IMG/VR virus record: IMGVR_UViG_3300045996_000725 | Location: 1-34,451 of that record | Source of the DNA: a virus | Length of the DNA: 34,451 bases | Reading direction: 5' to 3' (one strand) | Part shown: piece by piece, positions 659 through 26,907 of the stretch | Position numbering within the stretch: position 1 is the first letter of the stretch | Layout: the number at the start of each line of letters is the position of its first letter | Notes under the pieces: model-generated | Databases searched by the model: none | What the model saw: the letters and a program-made list of their open reading frames with translations, nothing else | What the model was told of the DNA's origin: nothing | Program-made: the position numbers and the translations under genes

Positions 659-1723
659 ATGTCGTACACCGAAGTCCTGACAGGTCACGATCTTACCGCT
701 GAACAGTGGGAGACCGGGATACAGTCAGAATATCTCCAACAGCTCTGGTGGGCGCACATCATGGGCGAAAGCTCAGATATGCCCATTCAGGTCAAGATGG
801 ACCTGAACAAGAAACCAGGCGATGCCATCACGATTGGCATTCGCTCAAAACTCAAAGGCGGTCACGTTACCGGACGCAATAAAGGCGAAGGGAACGAAGG
901 CCGCGTGGACTTCTACGGACAGCGCATCACCATCGACAATGACCGTCAGGTGGTCAAAGTCGAAGATGTGCCGATGACGCAGAAGCGTGTCCCTTGGGAT
1001 GTGCTGATGCAGGTTCGTGAAGCCCTCGTTGACCAATCCAAGCAACAGCTCGAGGACGACATTATGACGGCCATGATTGACACAGGCTCAGGCCGTGTCC
1101 GTGGTCGTTACCTCTATGGGGCTGCGGATTCCAACTGGAACGCGACCCATACAACCGCTCTCGGCAACATCGACAACACCAGCGACAAGCTGACGACTGG
1201 GATGTTGGATATTGCGAAGCGCAAGGCGCTTATTCCGGTCAATGCCACAGCCAGGATTCGCCCGATGAAGGTGCAGGTTGGGCAGTCCTTCCAAGAGTGG
1301 TTCATTTCGGTTCATCACCCGTACAGCATCCGCGACCTCATCACGGACGATGCATCGTGGAAGAACGCACAACTGAACGTGCCTCCGATTCAGGGGAACG
1401 GACATGTGCTCTACACGGGAGCCAGCTTCAAGGGCTCTTGGAACGGCGTGCTGATTTACGAGTGGGATCGGGTGGAGTTGGTGTCCTCGACCATTCAGTG
1501 CGGCCATGGGTTGCTCATGGGAGCGCAGGCCGGTGCGGTGGTCTGGGGTCAAACATCGAAGTTCACGGAAGATACCTCACAGGATTTGGGTCACGACTAT
1601 GTGGCCGAACTCCATGAGATTCGTGGCATCGAGAAGATTGTCTACGGACGCAACTCAGTGAGCGGCGAAAGTGACGAGGACAACGGCGTTGTCCACGTAT
1701 TCGCGGCCGCTGTTGCCGACTAA
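659..1723 (+). CDS. Major capsid protein, N4-gp56/DUF4043 family
   Basis: This 354-residue protein forms the icosahedral shell. It resembles the DUF4043 / N4-gp56 family of HK97-fold capsid proteins: an N-terminal segment with LTAEQWETGIQSEYLQQLWW, a glycine-rich loop with GHVTGRNKGEGNEG, and a helix with VREALVDQSKQQLEDDIM. A ribosome site (AAGGA) precedes ATG 659. Only one cysteine is present (in IQCGHG), as expected for a cytoplasmically assembled shell. It follows the scaffold-like gene by 17 bases and precedes a small putative decoration gene. Family assignment is from memory of conserved motifs; the length fits the family. Confidence 0.85.
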   Translation: MSYTEVLTGHDLTAEQWETGIQSEYLQQLWWAHIMGESSDMPIQVKMDLNKKPGDAITIGIRSKLKGGHVTGRNKGEGNEGRVDFYGQRITIDNDRQVVKVEDVPMTQKRVPWDVLMQVREALVDQSKQQLEDDIMTAMIDTGSGRVRGRYLYGAADSNWNATHTTALGNIDNTSDKLTTGMLDIAKRKALIPVNATARIRPMKVQVGQSFQEWFISVHHPYSIRDLITDDASWKNAQLNVPPIQGNGHVLYTGASFKGSWNGVLIYEWDRVELVSSTIQCGHGLLMGAQAGAVVWGQTSKFTEDTSQDLGHDYVAELHEIRGIEKIVYGRNSVSGESDEDNGVVHVFAAAVAD

Positions 1724-2790: not shown

Positions 2791-4476
2791 ATGAGGTCTG
2801 ACCATGTAGAGGCTGCTATTGCTCCAGCCGCAGCCTATTACATCGGCCGCGTTAAGAGGAAGCTCGCTACGGGTGTCTATAAAACGGAACCTGTAGCGTG
2901 CTTCTGCGGCTCCACTAAAGCCCAGACTGTCACGGAATTTGATCGGTACGGCTTCGACCACAAGATGCGTATGTGCTCGGAGTGCGGGATTCTCTACGCC
3001 AATCCGCGCATGACGGAGGACAGTTACGCACAGTTCTATGAAAAAGAATACCGCCACATTTACGACACGGACGAGGATTCGAACGAAGAGGACTTCGCCC
3101 ATGGACAGCAAATCGCTGAAGCCCTCCGCAATTACTTAGTCGAGCAGTACGAGTTCAAGCCTACCACTGTGTTCGATATTGGCTGCAATGCCGGAGCGTG
3201 GTTGCAACCATTTCTTGATGCCGGCGCACAAGTGCATGGCGTGGATTACGGACCAGAGCGGGTGTCGTTCGGGCGCGAAAGAGGCTTACCTATTGAGGTT
3301 GGTTCGATTGAGACCTTGGAGATTTTGGGCACCAAGGCTGACCTGATTCTGATGAATCATGTGTTGGAACATGCCACCGACATTGAGTCCATGTTGAAGC
3401 GCATACATGGCCTGCTCAGTGACGATGGGATGCTCTACGTGTCGATGCCTGGTCTGTTCGCTTGTGAATTGGACCGCGTATTCCAGAACGCTCACCCGTG
3501 GCAGTTTACCGCCGAGACGCTGATTTACGTGATGGAGTGCTGCGGCTTTGAGGAATTGAGGGCCGATCACTCGATTACGTCATTGTGGAAGAAGGCTGAT
3601 GGCTTCAGGGAGAAATCAAACAGACCGCAGGCACGATTCATCAGAGACATTCAGAATTATCTCTGGAAGAAAGGCACGCTGGTTCTTCCGCATGTACGCG
3701 GCGTCAATAAGTTTCCCTTAGCTGAACGCAAGAGTTTTGTTGCGTACTCGATGTCTCGCAACCTTCCTGACATCGCTGACCTCATTAACAAGCACGCGGG
3801 ACAGGAAGCCATCGTGATTGGCGGTGGCCCGTCAATAGAGACGCAGGTTGAGACGATTCGGGCCAAGCAACAGGCTGGAGGCGTCATGCTCGCCATTGAA
3901 CGCATGTTGCCGTGGTGTACGAAGCATGGGCTTACACCCAACTATGTGGTTGCTCAGGATGCGTCTGATGATGTGGTGGAAGCCTTTGAGACCATTCCTG
4001 ATGGATTGACATACCTTGTGGCTTCGCAGTGCCGGCCGTCAGTGCTGGATGCGCTGAACGGGGAGTCCGTCTACCTCTTCCATAGTTCCAATAAAGGCTT
4101 TACGGACCAGGAGCTTGATGGGGTTTCGCCTTCCAGTAAGAGGGCGCTCATCAACACTGGGGGAAGCGTTGTGCTGTGCTCACTGTCCATCGCGATGATG
4201 CTGGGCTGTAAGCGGCTGCACCTCTTTGGTTTCGATTGTCATGTGACGGCAGGGCATTACGCCAAGGGCATTGCTGGCGTTGGTGAACTGGGTGCTGTGA
4301 TTCCCGTAAAGATTGACGGCCGCAAGTTTACGACGACGATGCACTACGCCGCCTTCGCTCAACAGTTCTTTGAATTGCGGGAAATCGGGAAAGCACTAGG
4401 GTTACTCGATGACATCCGTGTGTACGGGGATTCGTTAGTCATTGCCATGAGTCAGGAGGATCTATGCGGGAAATAG
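2791..4476 (+). CDS. Fusion: SAM methyltransferase + DUF115/MAF-like domain
   Basis: Two domains are visible in 561 residues. Residues about 35-70 carry paired cysteines (ACFCGS and MCSECGILYANPR), a zinc-knuckle often fused to class I methyltransferases. Residues about 120-260 hold the SAM fold: motif I FDIGCNAGAWL, motif II VHGVDYG, and the NHVLEH and DDGMLYVSMPG motifs. From about residue 325 a DUF115 domain (MptE/MAF-like) follows: IVIGGGPSIETQ, LTPNYVVAQDAS, INTGGSVVLCSL and LHLFGFDC. DUF115 proteins include motility-associated factors that add sialic-acid-like sugars to flagellin. The gene sits among virion genes and overlaps the next gene by 13 bases. It may modify a glycan or a virion protein; the substrate is unknown. 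Confidence 0.7.
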   Translation: MRSDHVEAAIAPAAAYYIGRVKRKLATGVYKTEPVACFCGSTKAQTVTEFDRYGFDHKMRMCSECGILYANPRMTEDSYAQFYEKEYRHIYDTDEDSNEEDFAHGQQIAEALRNYLVEQYEFKPTTVFDIGCNAGAWLQPFLDAGAQVHGVDYGPERVSFGRERGLPIEVGSIETLEILGTKADLILMNHVLEHATDIESMLKRIHGLLSDDGMLYVSMPGLFACELDRVFQNAHPWQFTAETLIYVMECCGFEELRADHSITSLWKKADGFREKSNRPQARFIRDIQNYLWKKGTLVLPHVRGVNKFPLAERKSFVAYSMSRNLPDIADLINKHAGQEAIVIGGGPSIETQVETIRAKQQAGGVMLAIERMLPWCTKHGLTPNYVVAQDASDDVVEAFETIPDGLTYLVASQCRPSVLDALNGESVYLFHSSNKGFTDQELDGVSPSSKRALINTGGSVVLCSLSIAMMLGCKRLHLFGFDCHVTAGHYAKGIAGVGELGAVIPVKIDGRKFTTTMHYAAFAQQFFELREIGKALGLLDDIRVYGDSLVIAMSQEDLCGK

Positions 4477-5825
4477 TCTTAGGGGTCCTTCTGGGCCTCA
4501 TCTTAGCTGGTCCGGTTTGGGCCGCTGAGGAATATAAGCCTGTGCATGTGTTTCAGGATGGTGTGTCTGCGACTGCTGACGGAACCGCGCTGTCCGTAGC
4601 TGGGTGGTCAACCATTGGCGTACAGATTGTCATTACCGATACGGCAACCGTGGCATTTCAGGGCACCACCGATGGGTCAAATTGGGTAAGTCTCGCCTGC
4701 ACCTCGATTGCCAGTACAACGGGTGCGCTCGTAACCACGGCGACTGCTAGCGGTCTCTATAAATGCAACGTGGCTGGCATGGCGCAATTTCGCGTGAGGG
4801 TTTCTGCCTACACTGGCGGCACCGTGACGGTCAAAGGGTTGGTGACTGTGGCGAAGGCTGGGACTGGCTCAGGTGGTGGCAGTAGCGGGACCGCTACGGC
4901 TGTTTCCAGCAGCGACACCCTTCCGGCTTCATGCACTGTTGGGGATGTGTATGTGGATACTGATGCAACGAGCGGGTCAAAGCTCTATTACTGCGACACC
5001 ACGGATACGTGGGTGGATGTCCTCACCGCTGAAACACAAACGCTAGACCAAGCCTTCGACCAGGGCAAGACGATTGACGGTGCGAACAGTGTAGCGAACG
5101 CCGTGAGAATTGGTGATGGCACCACGCCAATCTGTCTCTATACCGATGCCACGCTTGGGCCGCAAGTACGGCCATGCACTGACGCTGATACAAAAACCAT
5201 CATTCCAACCAACTTTAATTGGTGTCTCTACGATATTGAGTCCACAAGCTGCATTGAGACGGTAGACCCTGACGGAGCTTCTACATTGGCGATGTGGACC
5301 TACGCCACGGCCTACCGTCCCAAGAAAAGTATTTGGTTCGGTGCAGGGTCACTCTCTGTGGATGGAACGAACTGTGTTGCCCCAGCAGAGGCAACGCCAG
5401 TTGCGAGCGGTCCAAAACTCTGGACCATCATCTGTGCCGATAACGCTAGCTCTACCATCTACGGCTCTGTGCGGATGCCGGATTCGTGGGACGGCGGGAC
5501 GGTTACGTTTACTCAGGTCTATCAGCAAACCGCAGCGGATACCAACATCCTCAACGGAGATATTTCCTGCCAAGCCCGCAGCAATGGTGAAGCGCCAAGC
5601 AGCACCTACGGATCAACAGTCGCGCTTGACGATGCAGCGGTTGTTGGGTCTGGGAGTAACGATATGACGACTTCAGCCGCAGCGACGTGTGCAGGAACGG
5701 GGCTGGCTGGTGGAGACATGCTGTATTGGAAATATGTTGTAGCGACTGAAACCACAACAGCAATGGCGACTCTCCACATTCTCGGTTTCAACATGGAATA
5801 CAGCATCACATCGAGGAGCGACTAG
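4464..5825 (+). CDS. Exported cysteine-rich beta protein with signal peptide
   Basis: The 453-residue protein starts with a clear Sec signal peptide: MREIVLGVLLGLILAG, then PVWA, with cleavage likely after VWA. The mature part is Ser/Thr/Gly/Ala-rich and appears all-beta, with a glycine linker near residue 140. It contains 12 cysteines, an even number that would suit disulfides outside the cytoplasm. The start is fixed by CAGGAGGATCT just before ATG 4464, inside the end of the preceding gene, so translation is coupled. No enzyme motif is recognised. Export of a product from the middle of a virion operon is unusual; it is the first of five such genes. Confidence 0.65.
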   Translation: MREIVLGVLLGLILAGPVWAAEEYKPVHVFQDGVSATADGTALSVAGWSTIGVQIVITDTATVAFQGTTDGSNWVSLACTSIASTTGALVTTATASGLYKCNVAGMAQFRVRVSAYTGGTVTVKGLVTVAKAGTGSGGGSSGTATAVSSSDTLPASCTVGDVYVDTDATSGSKLYYCDTTDTWVDVLTAETQTLDQAFDQGKTIDGANSVANAVRIGDGTTPICLYTDATLGPQVRPCTDADTKTIIPTNFNWCLYDIESTSCIETVDPDGASTLAMWTYATAYRPKKSIWFGAGSLSVDGTNCVAPAEATPVASGPKLWTIICADNASSTIYGSVRMPDSWDGGTVTFTQVYQQTAADTNILNGDISCQARSNGEAPSSTYGSTVALDDAAVVGSGSNDMTTSAAATCAGTGLAGGDMLYWKYVVATETTTAMATLHILGFNMEYSITSRSD

Positions 5826-6500
5826 ATGAAAGCCGCTCTAGCACTATTCCTGGTTCTATGGGTCACTCCATCATGGGCGTTTCCTGATAACGCAGTCCTT
5901 GAAGATTTCACCGGGGCAGACAACACCACGCCGCCGAACGGGAACTGGACCAATGCGCCACTAGTAGGTGCGACATCGGCCAGCATTCGTATTCGTAGTA
6001 ACGGAGGGACGACGGCGAGCAGTTCAGTGGAAGCCGATGCGTACTACAGCGCGGCGAGTTTTAACGCGAACCAAGAAGCCTATTTGACGATGATCCTGGC
6101 GAGCGGCACAGCGACGTATAGCTGCGTGTTTCTCCGTCTCGCCAACATTGGGAGTAGCACGACTGACGGGTATGACGTGTGCTGGTTCAACGGCACCGTT
6201 CGTATTAGCCGCCTCGATAACGGCGTGGAAACGCTCCTAGGGTCCTCCATTGTCCAAGCTGGCGATCCTGACGACGCGATAGGGGCCACCGCTGTTGGCG
6301 ATCAAATATGCGCGTATTTCAACAACGATGCAGCAGGGTGGACTCAAGTGGGGTGCCGAACGGACAGCACTTATTCTGCTGGTGGCTATATCGGCCTTCA
6401 ACTGAACCATACGAGCAACACGGTTGCCGTGATTGACAACTTCGGTGGCGGGAATGTGGCCTCAACGCGGCGGGCCGTGGCCCCTATTCTTTTTCAGTAG
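5826..6500 (+). CDS. Exported LamG-like (concanavalin-fold) protein
   Basis: The 224-residue protein has a signal peptide (MKAALALFLVLWVTPSWA, cleavage before FPDN). The mature sequence has the beta-sandwich look of LamG or concanavalin-like carbohydrate-binding domains: it opens with LEDFTGADNTTPP and ends with GGYIGLQLNHTSNTVAVIDN. Four cysteines (an even number) are present. The ATG directly abuts the previous stop, with GAGGAG upstream. The fold assignment is by pattern and moderately sure; the ligand is unknown, with glycans the usual partner of such domains. Confidence 0.6.
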   Translation: MKAALALFLVLWVTPSWAFPDNAVLEDFTGADNTTPPNGNWTNAPLVGATSASIRIRSNGGTTASSSVEADAYYSAASFNANQEAYLTMILASGTATYSCVFLRLANIGSSTTDGYDVCWFNGTVRISRLDNGVETLLGSSIVQAGDPDDAIGATAVGDQICAYFNNDAAGWTQVGCRTDSTYSAGGYIGLQLNHTSNTVAVIDNFGGGNVASTRRAVAPILFQ

Positions 6501-6507
6501 GAGACGC

Positions 6508-9300
6508 ATGTTAGGAATTATCATTTTATTGCTGGTCCTTCTCGGCACACCGGCATTCGCCACGACCTATTACGTGTCGCCGTCTGGGACTGGAACGAAC
6601 TGTACTGACGCGCAAGATCCAAGCACGCCGCATAACACGATTGCCGAAGGTGTCGCCTGCCTCGCTAACGGATCAGCGGACATCCTCTACCTTCGCTCAG
6701 GCACCTATACAACCAGCATCAATCTCATCACAGGGTCTAAGGCTGGGAGCGGTACGAATTATCTGACCATTGCGGCCTTCCCTGGTGAAACGGCGACGAT
6801 TGCTCCCACCTCGGGAATGCTCATTGTCAGCAGTGTCAACCATCACTTCATTATTGATGGGCTGGTGTTTGACGGTGTGAATCTGAACGCCAACACGTAT
6901 GGCACCTCGAACGGTGGGATTCACTTACAGAACGCCTATGAGTACACCATCAAAAATGTCACCACGAAACGGATGAAGTACAACGGGCTGTACCTGCAAG
7001 GGTTCACCAACGTCAAGATTCAAAATGTCCATAGCCACGATCAAGTGAGCCAGTGTGCTACGACAGGCACGCATCGGTTCTACGGGCTCTATGCGTTCAG
7101 CGGGAGCACCCTCCTAGTTGAGCATTCGACGTTTAACGGCAACCCAGGCGGCGGGATTCACTTGAATACGTCCACTGGTTCAGGCGGTGGCCCGCTTGCT
7201 GGCGTCATTATTCGGCATAACAAAGTCTACGAGAATAACTACTGCGGTGGCACCGTCTCGCCATTCGGCGGCATCATTGCCTATTCAGGGGGCGCATCAG
7301 CGGGAATCACCGGACTCCAGATTTATGAAAACGAAGTCTACGGCAACGGCACCACGAACGAAACGATTGCAGGCGGGATCATTATTAGCAATCTCGTTGC
7401 CAACTCCAAAGTCTTTAATAATACCGTGTATAACAATCGCGGGTACGGCATCGCCATTATGACGGTAGCCAGCAATGGGCATCTCGTCGCCAATAACATT
7501 ACACTGGGCAATCTCAGCAACAATCTGATTCGTGGCGAAGTCGCAGACGCGACCTTCACGACCAATCGGGACACTGGCTCGATTTCTGATTATGTGACGA
7601 ACGCGGCAGCTGGGGATTTCACTCTCAAGGCTGGCTCCGCTGCAATCGGGGCAGGGACGGCGCAAACTGACTTTATCTACAGTGGCACGACAGACCAAGG
7701 AGCGCACGATGCCTGGACCTGCACATCGGCAACCATTGATACCAATGTCATGGACATCAACTGCAACACAAAAGATGTCCCCGTCATTCCATCATCGTCC
7801 ATAACCGGGTTTAGCGTGAATTGCACCGGGACAGGATGCGGTTCTGGATGGACGGTTGTTGCTGAACGGAAAAGCGGCTCCGATGCGGTCATTCGGTTGA
7901 CGATTTCAGGGATCACTGGCAATGCGTGTGCAGCCGGTCAGACCTGGACATGGAGTTATACGCCAGGGAATCTGACTAATAGTGCCTACATTGGCGAGGA
8001 TGATGACCCAGCTAATCAAGGGTTACTTGCGGCCAGTAGTCAGGCCGTTACCAATGTGTGTACTGGCACGCCAACCACGCCGCCAGCCAGCGGGCTTCAT
8101 GTGCATTACAAGATGGATGAAGCAGCCGGTGCTGGCACGGCACAAGATGAAACGGCCAATAACCTTGACGGCACCTGGACGAATAGCCCAAGCGTCACAA
8201 CAGGCAAAACCGGCAATGCCTTGTCCTTCCCCGATGGGTCAACGGAAGTGTACTTGGCAGTGCCGTATGGAAGCGGGCTCAACCCAAGTTCATCATCGCT
8301 CTCCATCTGTCTCGGCGTGCTACCGCATAACGCCGCCGCCGCGCAAAAGATATGGTTCTCCGCAGATAACGGGACGAACCAACGGTTTTACTTCGGACAA
8401 GTTGGCGGGACAATCGGGATCGGGATTCAAAGCACAGGGTTCACCACTGGGAGCGAATTTCCCGTTGTGGCTGAGTGGACGCGGGTTTGCCTCGTTGCTG
8501 ACGCTGGCACCGATACCGCCACGCTCTATGTCAACGGCGTCAAGGGAGCAAGCTCGCAAGTTGTCAAGTCCTATACATCCTTCACCTTGGCCTCAAACTT
8601 CAAGGTAGGCGTTGGTACTTTCAGCGTGAATTATGGCGGGTCCACTGCTGATGACTTGAAAATCTACGCAGCGACTGCCTTGACCGATCAGGAAGTGCTG
8701 GACGATTACACGGCATGGAATCCAGTCACGCCAGATCCAACCGGGACCTATACTCAGGTTGGTCATCAATGGCAGCTGCTGCGGAAGAAAACTGACCTGT
8801 CTGCTGAGAATTACGGTGCAGCCAGCGCCACGATGCCGGTTGTAGTCGGAGGAGCGGTGACACTTGTAACTCAGGTGGACTGTACCACTGGGAACTGCGA
8901 CCCGACAGGGTTGCGCCTCTACTATAGCTGTGCGTCCTGCGATACGGCCGGCGAATGGCTCCCTGTACCTGACTCGGCTGGCAGTGATGGGGTGTCATTT
9001 TACGGTGCCACTGGCGATCAAGATATTGTGTCTGGGACCGTAGAATGTTGCCTGAGTGGGGCACTGACAGAGAACGATGGCAGTACGCAGTTCACGGCAT
9101 CGGCAATTCCGAACGTTGACCTCACGCAAAACTCGTCCTTTGTGCGTAGAAGTGTTCTTCGGTTTACTTCTAGCGTGACGGCCGGCCGCACCTACTGCTT
9201 TCAGGAATATCACCAAACTGGAGTGGCCCTGGCGACACCGACGCCTAGCGGTGGAGCCTGCGTCACTATTTCTTCAATGGCGGCTGGAGTGGGGTTCTAA
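6508..9300 (+). CDS. Exported right-handed beta-helix + LamG protein
   Basis: This is the largest product in the cassette, 930 residues. The start is ATG 6508, preceded by AGGAGAC, giving a signal peptide MLGIIILLLVLLGTPAFA; the frame stays open upstream but that part overlaps the previous gene. Residues about 20-400 form a pectate-lyase-like right-handed beta-helix: an opening YYVSPSGTGTNC and many N/G-rich coils such as HNKVYENNYCG and VFNNTVYNNRGYGI. Residues about 530-740 form a LamG/Laminin_G_3 domain (MDEAAGAGTAQDET to ADDLKIYAAT). A cysteine-rich C-terminal part follows. There are 20 cysteines in all. Such architectures bind or cut polysaccharides; no catalytic triad could be assigned by eye. 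Confidence 0.7.
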   Translation: MLGIIILLLVLLGTPAFATTYYVSPSGTGTNCTDAQDPSTPHNTIAEGVACLANGSADILYLRSGTYTTSINLITGSKAGSGTNYLTIAAFPGETATIAPTSGMLIVSSVNHHFIIDGLVFDGVNLNANTYGTSNGGIHLQNAYEYTIKNVTTKRMKYNGLYLQGFTNVKIQNVHSHDQVSQCATTGTHRFYGLYAFSGSTLLVEHSTFNGNPGGGIHLNTSTGSGGGPLAGVIIRHNKVYENNYCGGTVSPFGGIIAYSGGASAGITGLQIYENEVYGNGTTNETIAGGIIISNLVANSKVFNNTVYNNRGYGIAIMTVASNGHLVANNITLGNLSNNLIRGEVADATFTTNRDTGSISDYVTNAAAGDFTLKAGSAAIGAGTAQTDFIYSGTTDQGAHDAWTCTSATIDTNVMDINCNTKDVPVIPSSSITGFSVNCTGTGCGSGWTVVAERKSGSDAVIRLTISGITGNACAAGQTWTWSYTPGNLTNSAYIGEDDDPANQGLLAASSQAVTNVCTGTPTTPPASGLHVHYKMDEAAGAGTAQDETANNLDGTWTNSPSVTTGKTGNALSFPDGSTEVYLAVPYGSGLNPSSSSLSICLGVLPHNAAAAQKIWFSADNGTNQRFYFGQVGGTIGIGIQSTGFTTGSEFPVVAEWTRVCLVADAGTDTATLYVNGVKGASSQVVKSYTSFTLASNFKVGVGTFSVNYGGSTADDLKIYAATALTDQEVLDDYTAWNPVTPDPTGTYTQVGHQWQLLRKKTDLSAENYGAASATMPVVVGGAVTLVTQVDCTTGNCDPTGLRLYYSCASCDTAGEWLPVPDSAGSDGVSFYGATGDQDIVSGTVECCLSGALTENDGSTQFTASAIPNVDLTQNSSFVRRSVLRFTSSVTAGRTYCFQEYHQTGVALATPTPSGGACVTISSMAAGVGF

Positions 9301-9734
9301 TGCTCATTCTCTTGTTCATGCTGTTACTCGCTGCACCAGTTCAGGCGGCTTCGCTCATCTGGGACCCAACGGCTGATGGGTTTCTGCTCTTGCAGTATAG
9401 CGCGACTGAGGCAGGGCAATTCACGGTATTGAAGGAAATCCCGGCCTATCCACCAAGCTATTCCATTACGGAGTTCGGCTATTACAAACTCACGGTGCCG
9501 AACGGTGGGCCATCGTCCAATGTCGCTCGGTACTTTGCGGATGTGGACACTGGCTGGCAGGACGTAGTAGCGGCACTCGATACGCGGGTCAAGGCGCTGG
9601 AAAGCCCTGTCTCAGTCACCAACATGACGGCCAAACAGATAGATGCTGACCATATTGAGATTATCGGGAACGCCTGTACCTCACTGAGCACCAGCGGCAC
9701 AGGGCTAAAACGTATCATTACGTGTAAGCACTAA
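9300..9734 (+). CDS. Small exported FN3-like protein
   Basis: The 144-residue protein begins with a signal peptide (MLILLFMLLLAAPVQA). The mature N-terminus (SLIWDPTADGFLLLQYS) looks like the first strands of a fibronectin type III domain. A short helix (VVAALDTRVKALE) and a C-terminal segment with two cysteines follow. Start and previous stop overlap as TAATG, so translation is coupled to the beta-helix gene. The function is unknown; FN3 modules usually mediate adhesion or spacing. Confidence 0.6.
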   Translation: MLILLFMLLLAAPVQAASLIWDPTADGFLLLQYSATEAGQFTVLKEIPAYPPSYSITEFGYYKLTVPNGGPSSNVARYFADVDTGWQDVVAALDTRVKALESPVSVTNMTAKQIDADHIEIIGNACTSLSTSGTGLKRIITCKH

Positions 9735-9746
9735 AAGGGGGGCGTG

Positions 9747-10040
9747 ATGGCAGCAATAGCGAAAAGTGCAGAACTCAGGCCCACCATAGGGAAATACACC
9801 CCATTCGCAACCGGCGTGACGGTGATGGCCTCAGGGACCGCCACTGTTGAGTTAGGTAGTAAGTTCAGCGAAGTGTATGGCGCGGTGGGGTCCATTGCGG
9901 ACGCGGTGACTGGAGTCGGACAAACCGTGACGTTCAGTTTCTCAGGGACGACCATGACCATTGAGACGATCTCTGAGGCTGGTGCGTTGACTGGGACTTC
10001 ACTTGTAAGTTGGATTGCATTCGGGAAACCGAGGGCATAA
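9747..10040 (+). CDS. Small non-exported beta-rich protein
   Basis: The 97-residue protein has no signal peptide and no cysteine, although it sits between two exported genes. It is rich in Thr, Val, Gly and Ala, with a pattern like the small protein at 1735-1992. The start is taken as ATG 9747, about four bases after a GGGGGG ribosome site; a GTG one codon earlier is possible. It might be an adaptor or decoration protein. The two small proteins may be distant relatives, but that is a weak visual impression. Confidence 0.5.
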   Translation: MAAIAKSAELRPTIGKYTPFATGVTVMASGTATVELGSKFSEVYGAVGSIADAVTGVGQTVTFSFSGTTMTIETISEAGALTGTSLVSWIAFGKPRA

Positions 10041-10054
10041 AGGGAGACGGTCAC

Positions 10055-11191
10055 ATGAAATTGGCATTTAGGTTCTTAGTGGGCCTCGCACTATTCGGGG
10101 TGACATCTGGTGCGGTAGCGGCGATTGATGAGCGGTATGGCACCCCGCGCTGTTCGTCCGCTGACTGTCCAAGCAGCCTTCCCGCTCACCTGATGCCAGG
10201 AACGTCTGTCACCGACAAGATCAACGCGGCGATCAACTCGCTTCCATCGGGCGTTGGCGGCATTGTGGATGCGACCGGCTTTCCCAATCCAGTCACCCTC
10301 AGCGCCTTTACCATCACGCCTGGAGTCACGGTGATACTTGGCCCCGTCTTTCATACGCTGCTCTGCGGGACAATTACCATCCAGCAAGGCGGGCATCTAA
10401 TCGGGAACGGGCGCAACAGCCCTGGCGGGACCACGATTCGCCACAATGCGAACTGTAATGCCAACACGCCAATGATTAAGTTGATTTCCAGTGCAGGGTC
10501 CTCGAACTGGTGGCATAACGGCACGCTCAGAAACATTCGGTTGGACGGCCAGAAGGCGCAGCAAACGAACGCGAATAACTGTCTCGAAATTTATCAGCAA
10601 GGGGAAACCAGTGTCGTCGAGGAGTTGAGCATCACGGGCTGCAAAGGCAGCGGTATGTATATCTATGGCAGTAATTCCGGCACTGGCACTATTCGCAACA
10701 TTACGGTCAACTCCAATGAGGTGTGCGGGATCAAGCTGGACAGTTTCAATAGCGCAATCTCGATGCTTGGCGTGGGCGGGGATGATAACCCCATCACTAT
10801 GTGCATTATCAACTCAGCCGGTGGCGTCCAAATCACTGATTTCAAGAGCGAGAAAACGACGGTCACAGGACCGGCGATCACTATTGAGGGGGCTGGCCCT
10901 GGCGGAGCGGCACTGAACCTGACGATTGTCGGCGGGAATGCCCTGCAAGCGGGGGTTGCCTCAACTACGTTTCTGGAAATTCTCAACACGGTCACGGTCA
11001 ATCCCGCCATTACCATCATGGGCATGGTCGCAGGGAATAGCTATACCACCTTGATTGACGATAAGGAAAACACCATCACGGAGTCGGCCGACGCCCTGAG
11101 TTATACCAATCTCCTGTCATATGTCGGCGGGAAATCCATTCGGTTTGACAAGGACGGTTTTAAGGTCGATAGGGTGACGGTGCCGCAATGA
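10055..11191 (+). CDS. Exported beta-helix (pectate-lyase-like) protein
   Basis: The 378-residue protein starts at ATG 10055, after AAAGGGAGACGG; it opens with a signal peptide (MKLAFRFLVGLALFGVTSGAVA). The mature part is a right-handed beta-helix: INAAINSLPSGVGGIVDAT is the typical N-terminal cap of pectate-lyase-like tailspikes, and later coils include GCKGSGMYIYGSNSGTGTI and AITIEGAGPGGAALNLTI. The mature protein has eight cysteines. Phage tailspikes with this fold normally lack signal peptides. It may be a surface polysaccharide-binding or depolymerising protein; catalytic residues were not identified. Confidence 0.65.
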   Translation: MKLAFRFLVGLALFGVTSGAVAAIDERYGTPRCSSADCPSSLPAHLMPGTSVTDKINAAINSLPSGVGGIVDATGFPNPVTLSAFTITPGVTVILGPVFHTLLCGTITIQQGGHLIGNGRNSPGGTTIRHNANCNANTPMIKLISSAGSSNWWHNGTLRNIRLDGQKAQQTNANNCLEIYQQGETSVVEELSITGCKGSGMYIYGSNSGTGTIRNITVNSNEVCGIKLDSFNSAISMLGVGGDDNPITMCIINSAGGVQITDFKSEKTTVTGPAITIEGAGPGGAALNLTIVGGNALQAGVASTTFLEILNTVTVNPAITIMGMVAGNSYTTLIDDKENTITESADALSYTNLLSYVGGKSIRFDKDGFKVDRVTVPQ

Positions 11192-13573: not shown

Positions 13574-13999
13574 ATGGCAACTGTAGATGAATTTAAGGGC
13601 CTGAACATTGTCGTAGAGCAGATGAGCAAGACAATTGAGCGCCTTCGTTCAGAGCAGAAGGCCAAGGAGTCGGCCATCAAGGAACTGAATGAACAGTTGG
13701 TCTTGGTGGAGATGGACTGTAAGGAGAAGATGACGCTGGCAAAGAAAGCCTGTGACGAGGAATTGGCACGGCTGGAGAAGGCCGTGCAACCGCTACGCGA
13801 ATTGAAGCAGGAATGCGATAAGGTACGCGGGGAATTAGTGGCGATGAGCCAGGACAAACTAAATGCCATTGCCGAACTTGCCGCAGCAAAGAATTCGGCT
13901 ATTCGTGAAGCTGATGAGGAACTGAAGAAGCGGGCTTCTAAGCTCGCCGGTATTGAGAGCGCCATTTCAACCTGCAAGGCGAAGGTAGCGAGCCTCTAA
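13574..13999 (+). CDS. Coiled-coil protein before connector genes
   Basis: The 141-residue protein is almost entirely a predicted coiled coil, rich in Lys, Glu, Leu and Ala with heptad spacing (for example SKTIERLRSEQKAKESAIKE and ELKKRASKLAGIESAI). Four cysteines punctuate the helix. AAGGGGGACGT precedes ATG 13574. The stop overlaps the next start (TAATG). Position before the head-tail connector genes suggests an assembly or structural helper; the function is not known. Confidence 0.6.
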   Translation: MATVDEFKGLNIVVEQMSKTIERLRSEQKAKESAIKELNEQLVLVEMDCKEKMTLAKKACDEELARLEKAVQPLRELKQECDKVRGELVAMSQDKLNAIAELAAAKNSAIREADEELKKRASKLAGIESAISTCKAKVASL

Positions 14000-14856
14000 T
14001 GCCTACCAATAACTTCAACGTCACTCGAAACGACCTGATTGATCTGGCCTATAAGGACCTTGGCGTATTGGCCGAAGGGGAAACGCTGTCAGCCGACTTG
14101 CTGAACACAGGGATTAAAAAGCTCAACCTCATCATGCGTGAGCATGACTTGGCCGGCAAACACCTGTGGGCCATTAGCCTAAGCAGCATTACGCTTGTCG
14201 CTAACACCTTCGTCTATACCACCAGCAACGGGCTCTCCAGCAGCGCCTTGAGCATTGTGAGCGCCAGCTATCGGAACACCTCTGGCAATGATGAACCGTT
14301 AGATGTGTTGACCACTGAGCAGTATGAGCAGATTGAGAATAAGACGGAGACAGGAGACCCGCGTTTCGTCTACCTGACGGAGAACACCACAGTTTCTAGC
14401 AAGTCGCTCTATGTGGTGCCGATGCTCTCGAGTGTCAATACTCAGTCGGTAGTCACGGGAACCGATGCAGCGGCCTGGAAGTGCATACGGGCGCATACGG
14501 CCGCTGATGAGAATAAGCCGATTACGGGAGCCAACTATCTCCTGTATTGGGAATCGGGCGGTTCAGGTCCATCAGTGTGGGCATCCGGTACGAGCTATGT
14601 GGCTCCTGAATTGATACGCCTTCAGTTGAAGCGGCCTCTCTATGACTTCGATGCTGCGGCTGATAACCCAGACATGCCACAAGGCTGGTCCCTGTTCCTC
14701 CAGAAGCAGCTCGCCATTGAGTTGGCAGCTGGGCATAACACGCCTATTGAACGGGTGAACTTGCTTCGCAGCCTTAGGAATGAGTCGCACGAAAAGGTCT
14801 TTAGATCGGTGCAGGCACAGACGACCAGCATTCACAACAAGGTTCTCTATTTCTAA
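13999..14856 (+). CDS. Head-tail connector / P22 gp4-like protein
   Basis: This 285-residue protein has the N-terminal helical layout of P22 gp4-like tail accessory factors: FNVTRNDLIDLAYKDLGVLA, then LLNTGIKKLNLIMREHDLAG, followed by a beta-rich insert and a C-terminal helical part (LFLQKQLAIELAAGHNTPIE). gp4-like proteins extend the portal channel and close it after DNA packaging. It directly precedes the gp10-like gene, the usual P22 order. Family assignment is moderate. Confidence 0.65.
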   Translation: MPTNNFNVTRNDLIDLAYKDLGVLAEGETLSADLLNTGIKKLNLIMREHDLAGKHLWAISLSSITLVANTFVYTTSNGLSSSALSIVSASYRNTSGNDEPLDVLTTEQYEQIENKTETGDPRFVYLTENTTVSSKSLYVVPMLSSVNTQSVVTGTDAAAWKCIRAHTAADENKPITGANYLLYWESGGSGPSVWASGTSYVAPELIRLQLKRPLYDFDAAADNPDMPQGWSLFLQKQLAIELAAGHNTPIERVNLLRSLRNESHEKVFRSVQAQTTSIHNKVLYF

Positions 14857-16286
14857 TGGCCTGGAAGGAATTACCCCTTACCGGGGACCCATACGCGAAC
14901 GTGGATGAAGTGGAGCTAGACGGGGTGTCTGCTGCCCTCATTGACGGCTACGTGAATGAGCTAGGCCATACGGTGAAGCGACCAGGGCTTGAGGAGTGGG
15001 GGGACTACGGCACAGACGGATTGGCAGCTACCTTGCCAGCCATCATCGGGCTCTATTGGGATGAGGTCAATAGCATTGTCCTTGCCGTGAACAACGATGG
15101 GACACTGTGGAAGATTGAGCGCGATGGCACAATGACTGACACCTCACAAATAGGTGCCACCCCAACGATTAACAGGGCTTCGTTCGCGACGGATCGAAGC
15201 AACCTGTATGTAGCGCATGGAACGGTTATCCTGCAAACGGACATTACGCCACTAACCACCAATAGCACCGCAAACATGGCCGATGCACAAGCCCCTACGA
15301 CTGTGACGCACCTTGCGACCCTAGATGGCTATTTGATTGCAACCTCCGGTGGACGAGATGCCCAGTTCTCCGACCCGAACGATATGACTTCATGGACCTC
15401 AACGGATACCTTTCGTAAGGCCGGGAGACCCGATGACTTGCTTGGTATTTACGAAGGCTGGTCCGAACTCATGCTTGTCGGAGAGGAATCTGTTGAGATT
15501 TGGTACAACGACGGCGTGACGCCGTTTGTGCGGCGAGTGAACGGCTTAATTCCTACCGGCTGTTCAGCCGTGCAGACATTCAGGCAGGTTGGTAATAACT
15601 GGATGTGGCTGGATAACAAGCGGCGGTTCGTGAAGCTGGACTCCCGCACCCCCACACACATCAGCTTCCCCTATCATAAAGTTATTCAGGGCTTTGATAC
15701 CGTGTCTGATGCCGTTAGCGACAACATTGAAGTCGCAGGCTTCCCGCTCTACGTGACGAGCTTCCCTAATGGTAAGACCACACTCGCCTATAACTACCAA
15801 ACGGGCGGGTGGGCGCAGTGGGGCTATTGGAATACCGCTTCCGCTGAGTATGAAGCCTTCAGGGGTCACTCTTATTGTTACGCCAAGGGATGGAACTTCC
15901 ATCTAGTTGGCGATAGGCAAGACGGCCGTATTTATAAGATCAAGACTGACTGCTACACCGATGACGGGAACCCCATCAGAACGCTCAGGCGTACTGGCTT
16001 CATCAGTCATGGCACCTATAACGAGAAAAAGTCCTCAGAGATTGTATTCCGATTCAAGCGGGGGCGTGGCAATAGCGATGTGTCGGACCCAGTAGTGACG
16101 CTTCGCTGGCGCAACCATAACGGGGCTTGGAGCAACGAACGACAGTTGAGGTTAGGCCAAGTGGGAGACCATTACCTAGAAGCCCGCACACATAAGCTCG
16201 GTGCCTACAAGTTTAGACAGTATGAAATCTGCCATACAGACGCCTGCGAATTTGTGTTGGTAGATGCTCAGGAGAACGTGGAATGA
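14856..16286 (+). CDS. Packaged DNA stabilisation protein, P22 gp10-like
   Basis: The 476-residue protein has the beta-propeller repeats of P22 gp10: FSDPNDMTSWTSTDTFRKAG, LMLVGEESVEIWYNDG, WMWLDNKRRFVKLDSRTP and AYNYQTGGWAQWGYWNT. gp10 binds the end of the gp4 extended connector and prevents loss of packaged DNA. The N-terminus (LPLTGDPYANVDEVELDGVS) is typical of the family. It overlaps the preceding stop by one base and the next start by four. This assignment anchors the phage as having a short P22-type tail. Confidence 0.75.
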   Translation: MAWKELPLTGDPYANVDEVELDGVSAALIDGYVNELGHTVKRPGLEEWGDYGTDGLAATLPAIIGLYWDEVNSIVLAVNNDGTLWKIERDGTMTDTSQIGATPTINRASFATDRSNLYVAHGTVILQTDITPLTTNSTANMADAQAPTTVTHLATLDGYLIATSGGRDAQFSDPNDMTSWTSTDTFRKAGRPDDLLGIYEGWSELMLVGEESVEIWYNDGVTPFVRRVNGLIPTGCSAVQTFRQVGNNWMWLDNKRRFVKLDSRTPTHISFPYHKVIQGFDTVSDAVSDNIEVAGFPLYVTSFPNGKTTLAYNYQTGGWAQWGYWNTASAEYEAFRGHSYCYAKGWNFHLVGDRQDGRIYKIKTDCYTDDGNPIRTLRRTGFISHGTYNEKKSSEIVFRFKRGRGNSDVSDPVVTLRWRNHNGAWSNERQLRLGQVGDHYLEARTHKLGAYKFRQYEICHTDACEFVLVDAQENVE

Positions 16287-18494: not shown

Positions 18495-18842
18495 TTATCT
18501 GCCAGCTTGAGGAAACGGCATGGCCATAGGTTGGAATACCATCGGCGGTGGAGTCGGCATCGGGCGAAAGCCCTGGTTGATGCCGTTTATCATGGCATTA
18601 CCAGCACCGAATAGTGCCATGCCTCGCGTCTGTTCTTCGGCTAGGGCCATTTGGTTGTCTGTCTGCGGAAGGTACTGTTGCAGGTATTCCATTTCGCGCT
18701 TCGCTTTGTGTTCAGCGGTAAGAAACTGGTTGACGCATTGCATGGGATCTTTCATGGCTTTACAGAAGTTCAGCTCACTCTCGCTCATGGCAAACGCTGG
18801 TGACGCAATCAACAACGCGATGAATGCTAGTAGAGTTCTCAT
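18495..18842 (-). CDS. Exported moron gene product (signal peptide), lone reverse-strand gene
   Basis: The 115-residue protein begins with a textbook signal peptide (MRTLLAFIALLIASPAFA). The mature part has two cysteines (FCKAMKDPMQC), a charged helix and a proline/methionine-rich tail. It is read opposite to all surrounding late genes. It has its own ribosome site (GGAGG seven bases before ATG 18842) and a good promoter (18866-18895). It ends base-to-base with the upstream ejection gene. These traits define a moron, an independently expressed cargo gene. Mature location should be periplasm or outside. Function is unknown; envelope change in the lysogen or superinfection exclusion are options. 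Confidence 0.75.
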   Translation of the reverse strand: MRTLLAFIALLIASPAFAMSESELNFCKAMKDPMQCVNQFLTAEHKAKREMEYLQQYLPQTDNQMALAEEQTRGMALFGAGNAMINGINQGFRPMPTPPPMVFQPMAMPFPQAGR

Positions 18843-22123: not shown

Positions 22124-23164
22124 ATGGCAACTAACGCACAATTCAAATCTTTCGGACCGTTTTTCAATTCTTCCGGTACGCTCTACACACTTCAGATTTA
22201 TCACTACGCAGCTGGCACCACGACACTGCAAAACGGCTGGACCACTCGCACGAAATCAGCTACCGTTGCTCAACCGCTCGAGTCTGATTCTGCCGGCATT
22301 GCCTCTGGTTACTGGGATGGGATCTACAAGTTCAGAATTGACGGTTCAACCGATGGCGTCAATTACTCCACGATTTATACCTGGGATAACGTATCCGTCA
22401 CAGATAACTTCCCAAGCGGGGAAGGCACCGCCATTGCGTCAGCGGCAACGCTCACGCTTGGGACTGACGGTGATGTGTTCCACGTTACGGGCTCTACTGG
22501 CCCCATTACGGCCATCAGCGGGACGCAGCCTTACGTCAAGCTGATATTTGATTCGACTCCGACACTCACCCATTCTGCCGGTCTCGTCCTCAGTACCCGC
22601 GCTGACCGTACCGTATCGGCTGACGATATTTTAGAGTTCGTGAATGATGGAAGCGGCGAGTGGAATGAAGTTCCGCGTCGGGCGAACATTGCCCAAAAGA
22701 CGCTGACGGCTTCCACTTCAGGTACTGCCATAAACTTCACCGACATTCAAGCAGGCGTCAGGCGTGTCACCGTGACCTTCGCCGGTGTCTCCACGAACGG
22801 CACTGATGCCATCCTCATTCAACTCGGTGATAGCGGCGGGATTGAGAGCAGCGGCTATCTTGGGTCTAGCAATGCCGTGGTCAACGGTGGGGCCACAGCA
22901 GGAGCCAACTCTACCGCAGGACTCCTCATTTACAGCGTCTTGGCTGCCAACATCATCCATGGCACAGCCACATTTGAACTGGCAGATAAGGCCACATTCG
23001 CCTGGATTGGGCGCGGCACTTTCGGCCTCAGCAATTCGGTTACGAATATCGTCTCAGCCTGTAGCAAGTCGCTCTCAGCTGAACTGACGCAGCTCACCAT
23101 TACCACGACAGGTGGAACCAACACCTTTGATAACGGAACAGTCAACGTCATTTATGAGCGGTAA
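22124..23164 (+). CDS. Tail fibre / receptor-binding protein
   Basis: The 346-residue protein starts with a fibre adaptor-like domain (YTLQIYHYAAGTTTLQ, then ASGYWDGIYKFRI, the common 'AGT...D..G....DG.Y' pattern). Its C-terminal half matches a widespread phage fibre tip domain: GVRRVTVTFAGVSTNG, IQLGDSGGIESSGY and the final GTNTFDNGTVNVIYER. This domain generally ends receptor-binding fibres. A single cysteine and no signal peptide contrast with the exported cassette. It sits between the ejection proteins and the lysis block. Confidence 0.75.
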   Translation: MATNAQFKSFGPFFNSSGTLYTLQIYHYAAGTTTLQNGWTTRTKSATVAQPLESDSAGIASGYWDGIYKFRIDGSTDGVNYSTIYTWDNVSVTDNFPSGEGTAIASAATLTLGTDGDVFHVTGSTGPITAISGTQPYVKLIFDSTPTLTHSAGLVLSTRADRTVSADDILEFVNDGSGEWNEVPRRANIAQKTLTASTSGTAINFTDIQAGVRRVTVTFAGVSTNGTDAILIQLGDSGGIESSGYLGSSNAVVNGGATAGANSTAGLLIYSVLAANIIHGTATFELADKATFAWIGRGTFGLSNSVTNIVSACSKSLSAELTQLTITTTGGTNTFDNGTVNVIYER

Positions 23165-24123: not shown

Positions 24124-24330
24124 ATGATTGACGCCATTGGTCCATTAGCGGTGCTCGCTAACACCATCTTCAAGTACGTCACGGAACCGGACGGCTATCA
24201 CGAATGGTCTACCAATAAGAAACTGGGGAAACTCCATGAAGCCTCACAAAAGGCATTGGCGGATAAGGACTTCGCTGCTCTTGATCTTCTGCTTAGGGAA
24301 TACCGCAGGTTGTCTGATTCCATCGTTTAG
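24124..24330 (+). CDS. Small helical protein, possible inner spanin partner
   Basis: The 68-residue protein has a weakly hydrophobic N-terminus (AIGPLAVLANTIFKYV) and a charged helical body (KLHEASQKALADKDFAALDL). A lipoprotein-like gene is embedded in another frame of its 3' end, the arrangement of Rz/Rz1 spanins. The N-terminal segment is a poor membrane anchor, so the inner-spanin idea is weak. Confidence 0.45.
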   Translation: MIDAIGPLAVLANTIFKYVTEPDGYHEWSTNKKLGKLHEASQKALADKDFAALDLLLREYRRLSDSIV

Positions 24331-24484
24331 TATCCCAGCCACGCTGGATACGACGAACTGCGACCCGCTGAAGTCTGAGCAATGCTGGAGTGTGAGCACT
24401 GGCTTTGTGGAAGCTCGGTTCCTCTTGGAAGATCAGAATATCAGGCTGAAGGAAGCGTTAAAGACTTGCCGCGAAAAGCTGTGA
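24236..24484 (+). CDS. Rz1-like outer spanin lipoprotein candidate
   Basis: The 82-residue protein overlaps the previous gene by 95 bases in another frame. It has a basic N-region (MKPHKRHWRIRT), a hydrophobic stretch (SLLLIFCLGNTAGC) ending in a possible lipobox whose -3 position is Thr rather than Leu, then a short body. The body has C-x7-C (NCDPLKSEQC) and a helix ending in ALKTC, a tail typical of Rz1-type lipoproteins. Such proteins fuse outer and inner membranes at lysis, which implies a Gram-negative host. Confidence 0.55.
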   Translation: MKPHKRHWRIRTSLLLIFCLGNTAGCLIPSFSIPATLDTTNCDPLKSEQCWSVSTGFVEARFLLEDQNIRLKEALKTCREKL

Positions 24485-25883: not shown

Positions 25884-26023
25884 TGTTGATCTCGCAAGTC
25901 CCGACTCTCCAGCGGCAAGTCGTTCGTCTCAGAAATAAACCAGGCTGTAGCAAGAATGGCTAGGATGAGGCACAGCCCCATCAGTACGCACAGGGTCACA
26001 TCTTTTATGGTTAAGCCTTTCAT
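25880..26023 (-). CDS. 47-residue single-pass membrane protein after integrase
   Basis: ATG 26023 lies inside the integrase stop (ATGA overlap). Residues about 9-30 form one transmembrane helix (TLCVLMGLCLILAILATAWF) with a short charged tail. It is followed by another ATGA overlap. The chain int, membrane peptide and Trp-rich peptide suggests joint expression under integrase control; function is unknown. Confidence 0.6.
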   Translation of the reverse strand: MKGLTIKDVTLCVLMGLCLILAILATAWFISETNDLPLESRDLRDQQ

Positions 26024-26856
26024 GGTTGCACCCCCAGGATTCTACCGGAGTTAGCCTCTAATGCCTTCTGCACAGGTGCGAGGTTCAGCCTAGTGTAGAT
26101 GCCTGTGTTCGCCAGGGTAGTATGGTTCAACACGCCCTTGCTTATCAAGGCGATGTTCTCCCCATGGATAGCCAGCCAGGACGCACAGGTACGCCGTAGA
26201 TCGTGAATGGTAACATCTTTGATACCAGCAGCTCGGCGTATGCTGACCCAGCGTAGGTGCGCTGCACTCTTGCTCCAGTGGCCTCGCTTGCTGGCAAAGA
26301 CGTACTCGTTATGATGGGGGAGGTTCTTGATACGTTCCAACAGGGCTGTTGGGATCGGGATATTGTGCTTTATCCTAGTTTTGGTCTCTCCCTTATGCCA
26401 AACGCCCCGGTGGAAATCAATGTCAGTCCATTTGATGGTCAATCCCTCCATCTTTCGACAGCCCACCAGGAGGCAGAGCAGGAAATAGCACTGCCAATTC
26501 TCAGGCTCAGTATTGAGCACCTTAATGAGCATGGGCATTTCCTCTTCCTGCACAAATCGGTCCCGTTCTTTCCTGGGATACTTTTTCACTCGTTGGCACG
26601 GGTTGTCCCCTTCGTACATCTTCCAGTCCCGCGCCTTATCAAACATGGTGCGAAGAATTGACAGGGACTTATTCGCCTGGGACTGCGAATGCTTCCCGAT
26701 GTTGTGATACCACTTCTCCACGACCAAGGGTGTCACCGCCTCTATTGAATAGGCTTTGAGTGGGCCAAAGTATTTGGCAATGACCCATTCAAACTCTCGG
26801 CGTACCGAGAGATTGGCAACGTGACACTCCTTAAACTCCTGCATCAAAGCGTCCAT
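26020..26856 (-). CDS. int: Tyrosine-recombinase phage integrase
   Basis: The 278-residue protein has the full catalytic set: R134 (LVGCRKMEGL), K159 (KGETKTRIKH), H218-x-x-R221 (IHDLRRTCASW), H245 (GVLNHTTLAN, with LNH for the usual LGH) and nucleophile Y254 (TGIYTR). Residues 1-85 form the N-terminal SAM-like core-binding domain. The start is ATG 26856, chosen because GGAGG lies six bases upstream; the longer frame to 26898 has no ribosome site. It would insert the phage at a host site and, with a partner, excise it. Confidence 0.9.
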   Translation of the reverse strand: MDALMQEFKECHVANLSVRREFEWVIAKYFGPLKAYSIEAVTPLVVEKWYHNIGKHSQSQANKSLSILRTMFDKARDWKMYEGDNPCQRVKKYPRKERDRFVQEEEMPMLIKVLNTEPENWQCYFLLCLLVGCRKMEGLTIKWTDIDFHRGVWHKGETKTRIKHNIPIPTALLERIKNLPHHNEYVFASKRGHWSKSAAHLRWVSIRRAAGIKDVTIHDLRRTCASWLAIHGENIALISKGVLNHTTLANTGIYTRLNLAPVQKALEANSGRILGVQP

Positions 26857-26882
26857 AGTACCTCCGACAAGGTGTAATAATT

Positions 26883-26907
26883 GGGACGCGAAGTACAACA
26901 GCGTCCC
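26883..26907 (-). other. Inverted repeat upstream of integrase (operator or att-core candidate)
   Basis: GGGACGC (26883-26889) and GCGTCCC (26901-26907) form a perfect 7-bp inverted repeat separated by 11 bases, just ahead of the integrase ribosome site. It could be a messenger-RNA hairpin, an operator, or arms of a recombination core. Nothing distinguishes these by eye. Confidence 0.4.

Follow-up and report, generated by a model that had tools for sequence, protein, structure and literature searches.

Genome Organization around the Gene Set

The window analyzed in this study, i.e., the whole stretch of DNA of 34,451 nucleotides, is a linear virus record of IMG/VR (IMGVR_UViG_3300045996_000725). 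It belongs to a P22/Pam-like podovirus, which is probably temperate given the presence of a tyrosine integrase gene. Five genes encoding proteins with a predicted signal peptide, named SP1 to SP5, were found between the genes of the major capsid protein and the putative tail adaptor, which are the borders of a variable region. The features of the window are the following:

659..1723, + strand: major capsid protein (PF13252), upstream border of the variable region
2791..4476, + strand: fusion of a methyltransferase and an MptE-like protein (DUF115), without signal, overlapped by the start of SP1
4464..5825, + strand: SP1; signal at residues 1-20, YomS/XepA-C-like beta-sandwich at about 27-128, linker, C-terminal jelly-roll at about 250-453; 12 mature cysteines
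4464..4523, + strand: predicted Sec signal of SP1, MREIVLGVLLGLILAGPVWA, followed by AEEY
5826..6500, + strand: SP2; signal at residues 1-18, body of about 200 aa, LamG/jelly-roll-like by appearance; 4 mature cysteines
6468-6497: conserved C-terminal tail of SP2, RRAVAPILFQ
6508..9300, + strand: SP3; signal at residues 1-18, right-handed beta-helix (PF13229) and more beta-sandwich domains; 20 mature cysteines
9300..9734, + strand: SP4; signal at residues 1-16, small, FN3-like by appearance; 2 mature cysteines
9747..10040, + strand: small protein inside the cassette, without signal or cysteines
10055..11191, + strand: SP5; signal at residues 1-22, beta-helix-like repeats by appearance only; 8 mature cysteines
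13999..14856, + strand: putative tail adaptor, by position (phrog_12985), downstream border of the variable region
14856..16286, + strand: head-closure Hc3/nozzle protein
17490: ejection protein
22124..23164, + strand: candidate conventional tail fibre/spike, by position; no signal, 1 cysteine, no family match
23311: endolysin
26020..26898, - strand: tyrosine integrase (PF00589)

The interval from capsid to adaptor spans about 12 kb in the window and comprises 1-3 small genes in Pam1, Pam5, and Pan3, which are cultured phages of the same capsid family. The SP cassette is absent from the cultured capsid relatives Pam5, Pan3, KLEP18-1, CBW1004C-Prop1, and Pam1.

Other traits of this group of phages must be noted. 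Glycan genes were found in capsid relatives, namely NeuB (L010 and L030), a cytidylyltransferase (L010 and L004), and a class IV aminotransferase (L004), at L010:14019-15616, L030:923-1741, and L004:305-2701. Together with the MptE-like fusion (2791-4476 in the window), they likely constitute a phage-borne nonulosonic-acid glycan pathway. The late operon also includes an aspartyl/asparaginyl beta-hydroxylase (PF05118, 16621-17208), the L013 copy of which is 97% identical. A 115-aa gene product with a Sec signal is encoded on the opposite strand amid the ejection-protein genes (18495-18842, - strand), and phage CBW1004C-Prop1 carries a reversed "putative exported protein" in a comparable place (L020:22069-22422). 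In addition, a small protein that resembles a lipoprotein and bears an NCDP motif (24236-24484), possibly an outer-membrane spanin, apparently occurs also in L049 (L049:15257-15439), an unrelated carrier of the cassette.

Predicted Signal Peptides and Translational Coupling

In agreement with the preliminary description of this DNA, the five ORFs starting at 4464, 5826, 6508, 9300, and 10055 were all present, with ATG as the start codon and canonical type I Sec signals at the N-termini of their products. The n-regions are short and positive or neutral, the h-regions are short, with a mean hydrophobicity of 2.8-4.1 (Kyte-Doolittle), and the sites are of the AxA type. Cleavage is predicted after MKAALALFLVLWVTPSWA in SP2 (then FPDN), MLGIIILLLVLLGTPAFA in SP3 (then TTYY), MLILLFMLLLAAPVQA in SP4 (then ASLI), and MKLAFRFLVGLALFGVTSGAVA in SP5 (then AIDE). 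Neither a lipobox nor any other membrane anchor was found in SP1-SP5, in which the +1 residues are A, F, T, A, and A.

Signals were called with a rule-based scanner written for this analysis. As a background, it was applied to the late regions of 80 other environmental phages, where it called 3 signals among 631 genes (0.5%), none of them in consecutive genes. This background and the conservation of the signals ruled out a chance clustering of five signals within about 10 genes. Wrong start codons were likewise ruled out, since 5 of 5 are ATG and a clear Shine-Dalgarno-like motif is present in 4 of 5.

The proposed translational coupling was also borne out, as SP1 overlaps the preceding stop by 13 nt, SP2 starts directly after a stop, SP3 7 nt after, and SP4 with an overlap of 1 nt. 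No promoter-like site was found on the + strand of the cassette, and its terminator-like sites are few, fewer than in shuffles.

Parity of the Cysteines

The number of cysteines was determined in 59 cassette proteins from 20 contigs after removal of the predicted signal. It was even in the mature part of 56 of them (p = 6e-14) and in 43 of 59 when the signal was included. The cysteine number within the signal is odd in 17 of these proteins, 15 of which also have an odd total. As a control, proteins without signal and with at least two cysteines were counted in the same loci; 50 of 103 had an even number, which corresponds to chance. When orthologues were collapsed to distinct family-by-count states, 26 of 29 were even (p = 8e-6). 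Fixed cuts at residues 18, 20, and 22 each gave 56/59, and a cut at residue 24 gave 55/59. In addition, cysteine pairs are gained or lost jointly: C304 and C324 are both missing in L004 only, C254 and C263 are concordant, and in the window C371 and C414 are displaced as a pair.

Given that the counts are even only after removal of the signal and that the controls lie at chance, it is probable that the signals are cleaved and that the mature cysteines pair in an oxidizing compartment. The simplest cause of the parity would be cleaved signals and disulfide-bonded mature proteins, i.e., periplasmic folding. In this regard, it must be considered whether the hydrophobic N-termini are instead uncleaved membrane anchors or virion-assembly elements of proteins that remain on the cytoplasmic side, as the existence of homologues of the SP1 domain without any signal could suggest. 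We regard this as very improbable in view of the AxA sites, the short h-regions, the co-variation of the cysteine pairs, and a parity that emerges only once the signal is removed.

Variation among Close Relatives

SP1-SP2-SP3-SP4 were found in identical order in the close relatives L003/L014, L004, and L013. With respect to the window, the capsid, adaptor, and Hc3 proteins of these relatives are 93-98% identical (where sequence covers them), while the identity is 57-75% for SP1 and 36-40% for SP3. Despite this divergence, all their SP genes retain a signal, the letters of which differ each time; the scanner does not detect that of SP2 in L013, MKRLLLTLTVLCVLFVTEQAQA, which carries a polar Q-E insertion. 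A homologue of SP5 with a signal (72% identity) is present in L012, in which the SP3 homologue likewise begins with a signal. The cassette is hypervariable yet signal-retaining. Other signal-bearing genes lie far upstream of the capsid gene in more distant capsid relatives (L040:995-2782 and L039:2960-3481), and the product of the latter also ends in IMLLQ.

High variability is a property of receptor-facing genes, and the SP proteins could accordingly be surface decoys or receptor blockers, i.e., late exported adhesins that cover the host receptor, exclude superinfection, and stop progeny from re-adsorbing to debris. Llp of T5/BF23 is such a protein: it is exported, encoded beside the receptor-binding gene, and blocks the receptor, and it is presumed to shield progeny from cell debris (PMC4728585). 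The likeness of the SP set to Llp lies in the predicted export; however, Llp is a single lipoprotein, whereas the SP set consists of 3-5 predicted soluble proteins with type I signals, which lack a lipobox or other membrane anchor. Moreover, the cassette does not adjoin the candidate tail fibre gene, and large multi-domain beta-helix proteins exceed the needs of a blocker. A decoy function is therefore improbable in our opinion.

Recurrence in Other Phage Backbones

Other carriers were found by searching with the SP1 alignment, and the SP1-SP2-SP3 order, with signals, was found again in eight contigs (L015, L025, L026, L027, L049, L053, L055, and L059). Family searches indicated that the carriers of the trio represent several different backbones. 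In L026, a siphovirus, the trio is inserted amid tail genes (DUF2460, baseplate-hub, and BR0599). In L027 and L053, it follows the gene of a large cysteine-free protein, which in L027 has a DarB-like match, and precedes the lysis genes. L049 combines the trio with another capsid family, and L059, a phage unrelated to that of the window, has an internal virion protein gene and a cassette closed by an SP4 homologue (40% identical). Ten of the records brought in by this search, including some fragments, gave no match to the capsid family of the window. Three consecutive signal genes also occur in a similar arrangement in L045, from a Pseudomonadota MAG; as L045 may be a phage contig binned by mistake, we assign no host.

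Two other explanations were ruled out by these data. A peculiarity of one contig was discarded because SP1 with a signal occurs in at least 17 contigs, and a decoration cluster tied to the capsid-adaptor interval because the trio is located elsewhere in L026, L027, and L059. Among GenBank phages, single searches with SP3, SP5, and SP2 of L027 gave no matches, and the C-terminal domain of SP1 gave a weak match only, which led to gp74. Since the trio recurs in order across several unrelated backbones, SP1-SP2-SP3 is, on the evidence of gene content and order, a portable late-operon cassette, the full set of which has 3-5 genes.

The bodies of the SP2 proteins belong to several unrelated families, with Laminin_G_3 in L015. 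Most of them nevertheless end in, or near, a common tail of the type RRPIxPIxFQ, and a similar motif terminates 26 of 4594 background ORFs. Across unrelated backbones, the C-terminal tails of both SP1 and SP2 persist, whereas the bodies are exchanged. The SP2 tail may serve as a docking strand or mark a recombination border. Phages whose virions are unrelated have this tail in common, which makes a partner within the module or in the host envelope more likely than one on the virion.

Predicted Folds and Relatives of SP1 and SP3

Structure prediction was run on SP1 (pLDDT 79) and SP3 (pLDDT 71) and yielded a beta-sandwich plus a CBM-like jelly-roll and a beta-helix, respectively; the matches of both are fold-level only, with low whole-chain TM-scores. 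Regarding the fold labels of the preliminary description, the beta-helix of SP3 was confirmed (PF13229, 6e-12), while those of SP5 (beta-helix), SP2 (LamG/jelly-roll), and SP4 (FN3) rest on appearance, as these proteins gave no Pfam or PHROG match.

The N-terminal half of SP1 resembles the C-domain of YomS/XepA (6i5o, TMt 0.68 over 100 residues, rmsd 2.7, 22% identity; also 6i56), a relation that is marginal by sequence alone (E 0.094). YomS (SPbeta) and XepA (PBSX) are proteins of prophage lytic cassettes. XepA, from a Bacillus prophage, is a two-domain dumbbell, whereas SP1 has one YomS-type domain only, its second half being the CBM-like jelly-roll, and lacks the N-terminal domain of XepA. 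Unlike XepA, SP1 has a signal peptide and inferred paired cysteines and does not adjoin lysis genes. XepA, a cytotoxic protein, reportedly appears late, is exported beyond the cytoplasmic membrane, and is missing from mature particles (PMC6834076). The YomS/XepA discs are pentameric and their proposed location is the capsid vertices (PMC6834076), and YomS, the part of XepA resembling SP1, is not cytotoxic by itself.

The fold nearest to the SP3 beta-helix is that of rhamnogalacturonan lyase, and the phage tailspike TSP2 was also matched (5olr, 6w4q). The right-handed beta-helix is common to SP3, these lyases, and tailspike depolymerases such as CBA120 TSP2; however, tailspikes have no signal and attach to the virion by their N-terminus, which in SP3 is a signal peptide. 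The SP3 model also gave Foldseek matches to lectin-like receptor-binding domains (TM about 0.15), which we dismissed as noise at the level of folds.

The C-terminal domain of SP1, of about 180 aa, is homologous to the gp74 family of EBPR siphovirus 2, as revealed by HMM cross-matches (E<1e-5). By structure, Foldseek matched it to BFVD F8TV94, a 388-aa protein presumed to be gp74 (E 3e-12). This family consists of uncharacterized phage jelly-roll proteins, and the gp74 gene sits among the tail genes of its phage. Gp74-type proteins have no N-terminal signal and are cysteine-poor, while SP1-type proteins have a signal and many cysteines (0.50 vs. 2.58 cysteines per 100 aa, p = 3e-11). In a maximum-likelihood tree, 19 signal-bearing rows formed one clade with support 100/100, although both sets were fetched by different peptide patterns and intermediates could be missing; one of the 19, L063, has a hydrophobic stretch without a standard start codon.

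These relatives raise the alternative that the SP proteins are exported, periplasm-oxidized virion appendages (head or tail fibres) that attach to completed virions once lysis opens the inner membrane. The homology to a protein encoded among tail genes, the fibre repeats that SP1 of L027 has in common with cyanophage structural proteins, the place of the cassette in the window right after the capsid gene, where Pam1 and Pam5 have decoration genes, and the proposed vertex location of the YomS/XepA discs all point in this direction. On the other hand, the conservation of C-terminal tails across unrelated virions would not be predicted by a virion-specific docking site, the window also has a candidate conventional tail-fibre gene without signal (22124), and XepA itself is reported to be absent from virions. 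We thus consider appendages unlikely, and the virion appendage built by an unusual route that the preliminary description had put forward is weakened by tails common to phages with unrelated virion proteins. Equally doubtful is its broader form, in which tailed phages would build a virion part outside the cytoplasm by means of a portable fibre cassette, Sec export, periplasmic disulfides, and mounting at lysis via the C-terminal tails; it would be categorically new if the SP proteins reached the virion.

A Putative Secreted Module of the Late Phase

The reading that we favour, and hold to be reasonably probable, is that a portable late-operon cassette encodes adhesins and beta-helix proteins of virion type that are exported as a secreted oxidized module acting around lysis. 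We have high confidence in its first steps, in which the SP proteins would be made together with the late virion genes, would cross the inner membrane via Sec with loss of their signal peptides, and would fold in the oxidizing periplasm, where practically all their cysteines would form pairs. We are moderately confident that SP1, SP2, and SP3 act jointly as a set independent of the virion type, because the trio and both tails (SP1 and SP2) persist in unrelated backbones, whereas the bodies are exchanged. Our confidence is lower for the last steps: the proteins may build up in the periplasm or on the surface and, at about the time of lysis, target glycans of the envelope or outside the cell, the CBM/LamG-like folds binding and the beta-helix cutting them, so that the exit and dispersal of the progeny would be helped, or trapping on debris avoided.

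The reported late, exported, and non-virion character of XepA, which has the YomS-type domain seen in SP1, counts in favour of the secreted module. Against it count the lack of cytotoxicity of YomS by itself and the kinship of SP1 with virion-type proteins, which fits appendages equally well. The export previously proposed is strongly backed by the cysteine parity, the retention of signals through heavy divergence, the unexported homologues without signal and poor in cysteines, and the recurrence of the cassette. Binding or cutting of polysaccharide by the cargo is suggested by folds (CBM-like, LamG, and a beta-helix resembling rhamnogalacturonan lyase and tailspike). As for the earlier remark that no described system of the kind was known, we found no description of such a multi-gene cassette in the open-licence literature searched, although single exported late proteins, XepA and Llp, were already known and are its nearest precedents.

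It is assumed that tail-fibre-type proteins fold in the cytoplasm and act from there and, to our knowledge, tail-type phage proteins are not known to be exported and disulfide cross-linked. The parity of the cysteines provides a cheap test, applicable to any phage genome, for finding exported, disulfide-bonded phage proteins, and the SP proteins may be of use as stable glycan-binding or glycan-cutting tools. If the proposed reading is true, this exported, oxidized, and transferable set would be a secreted arm of the late phase of tailed phages, which would bear on lysis, on the escape from glycan-rich surroundings, and on host range.
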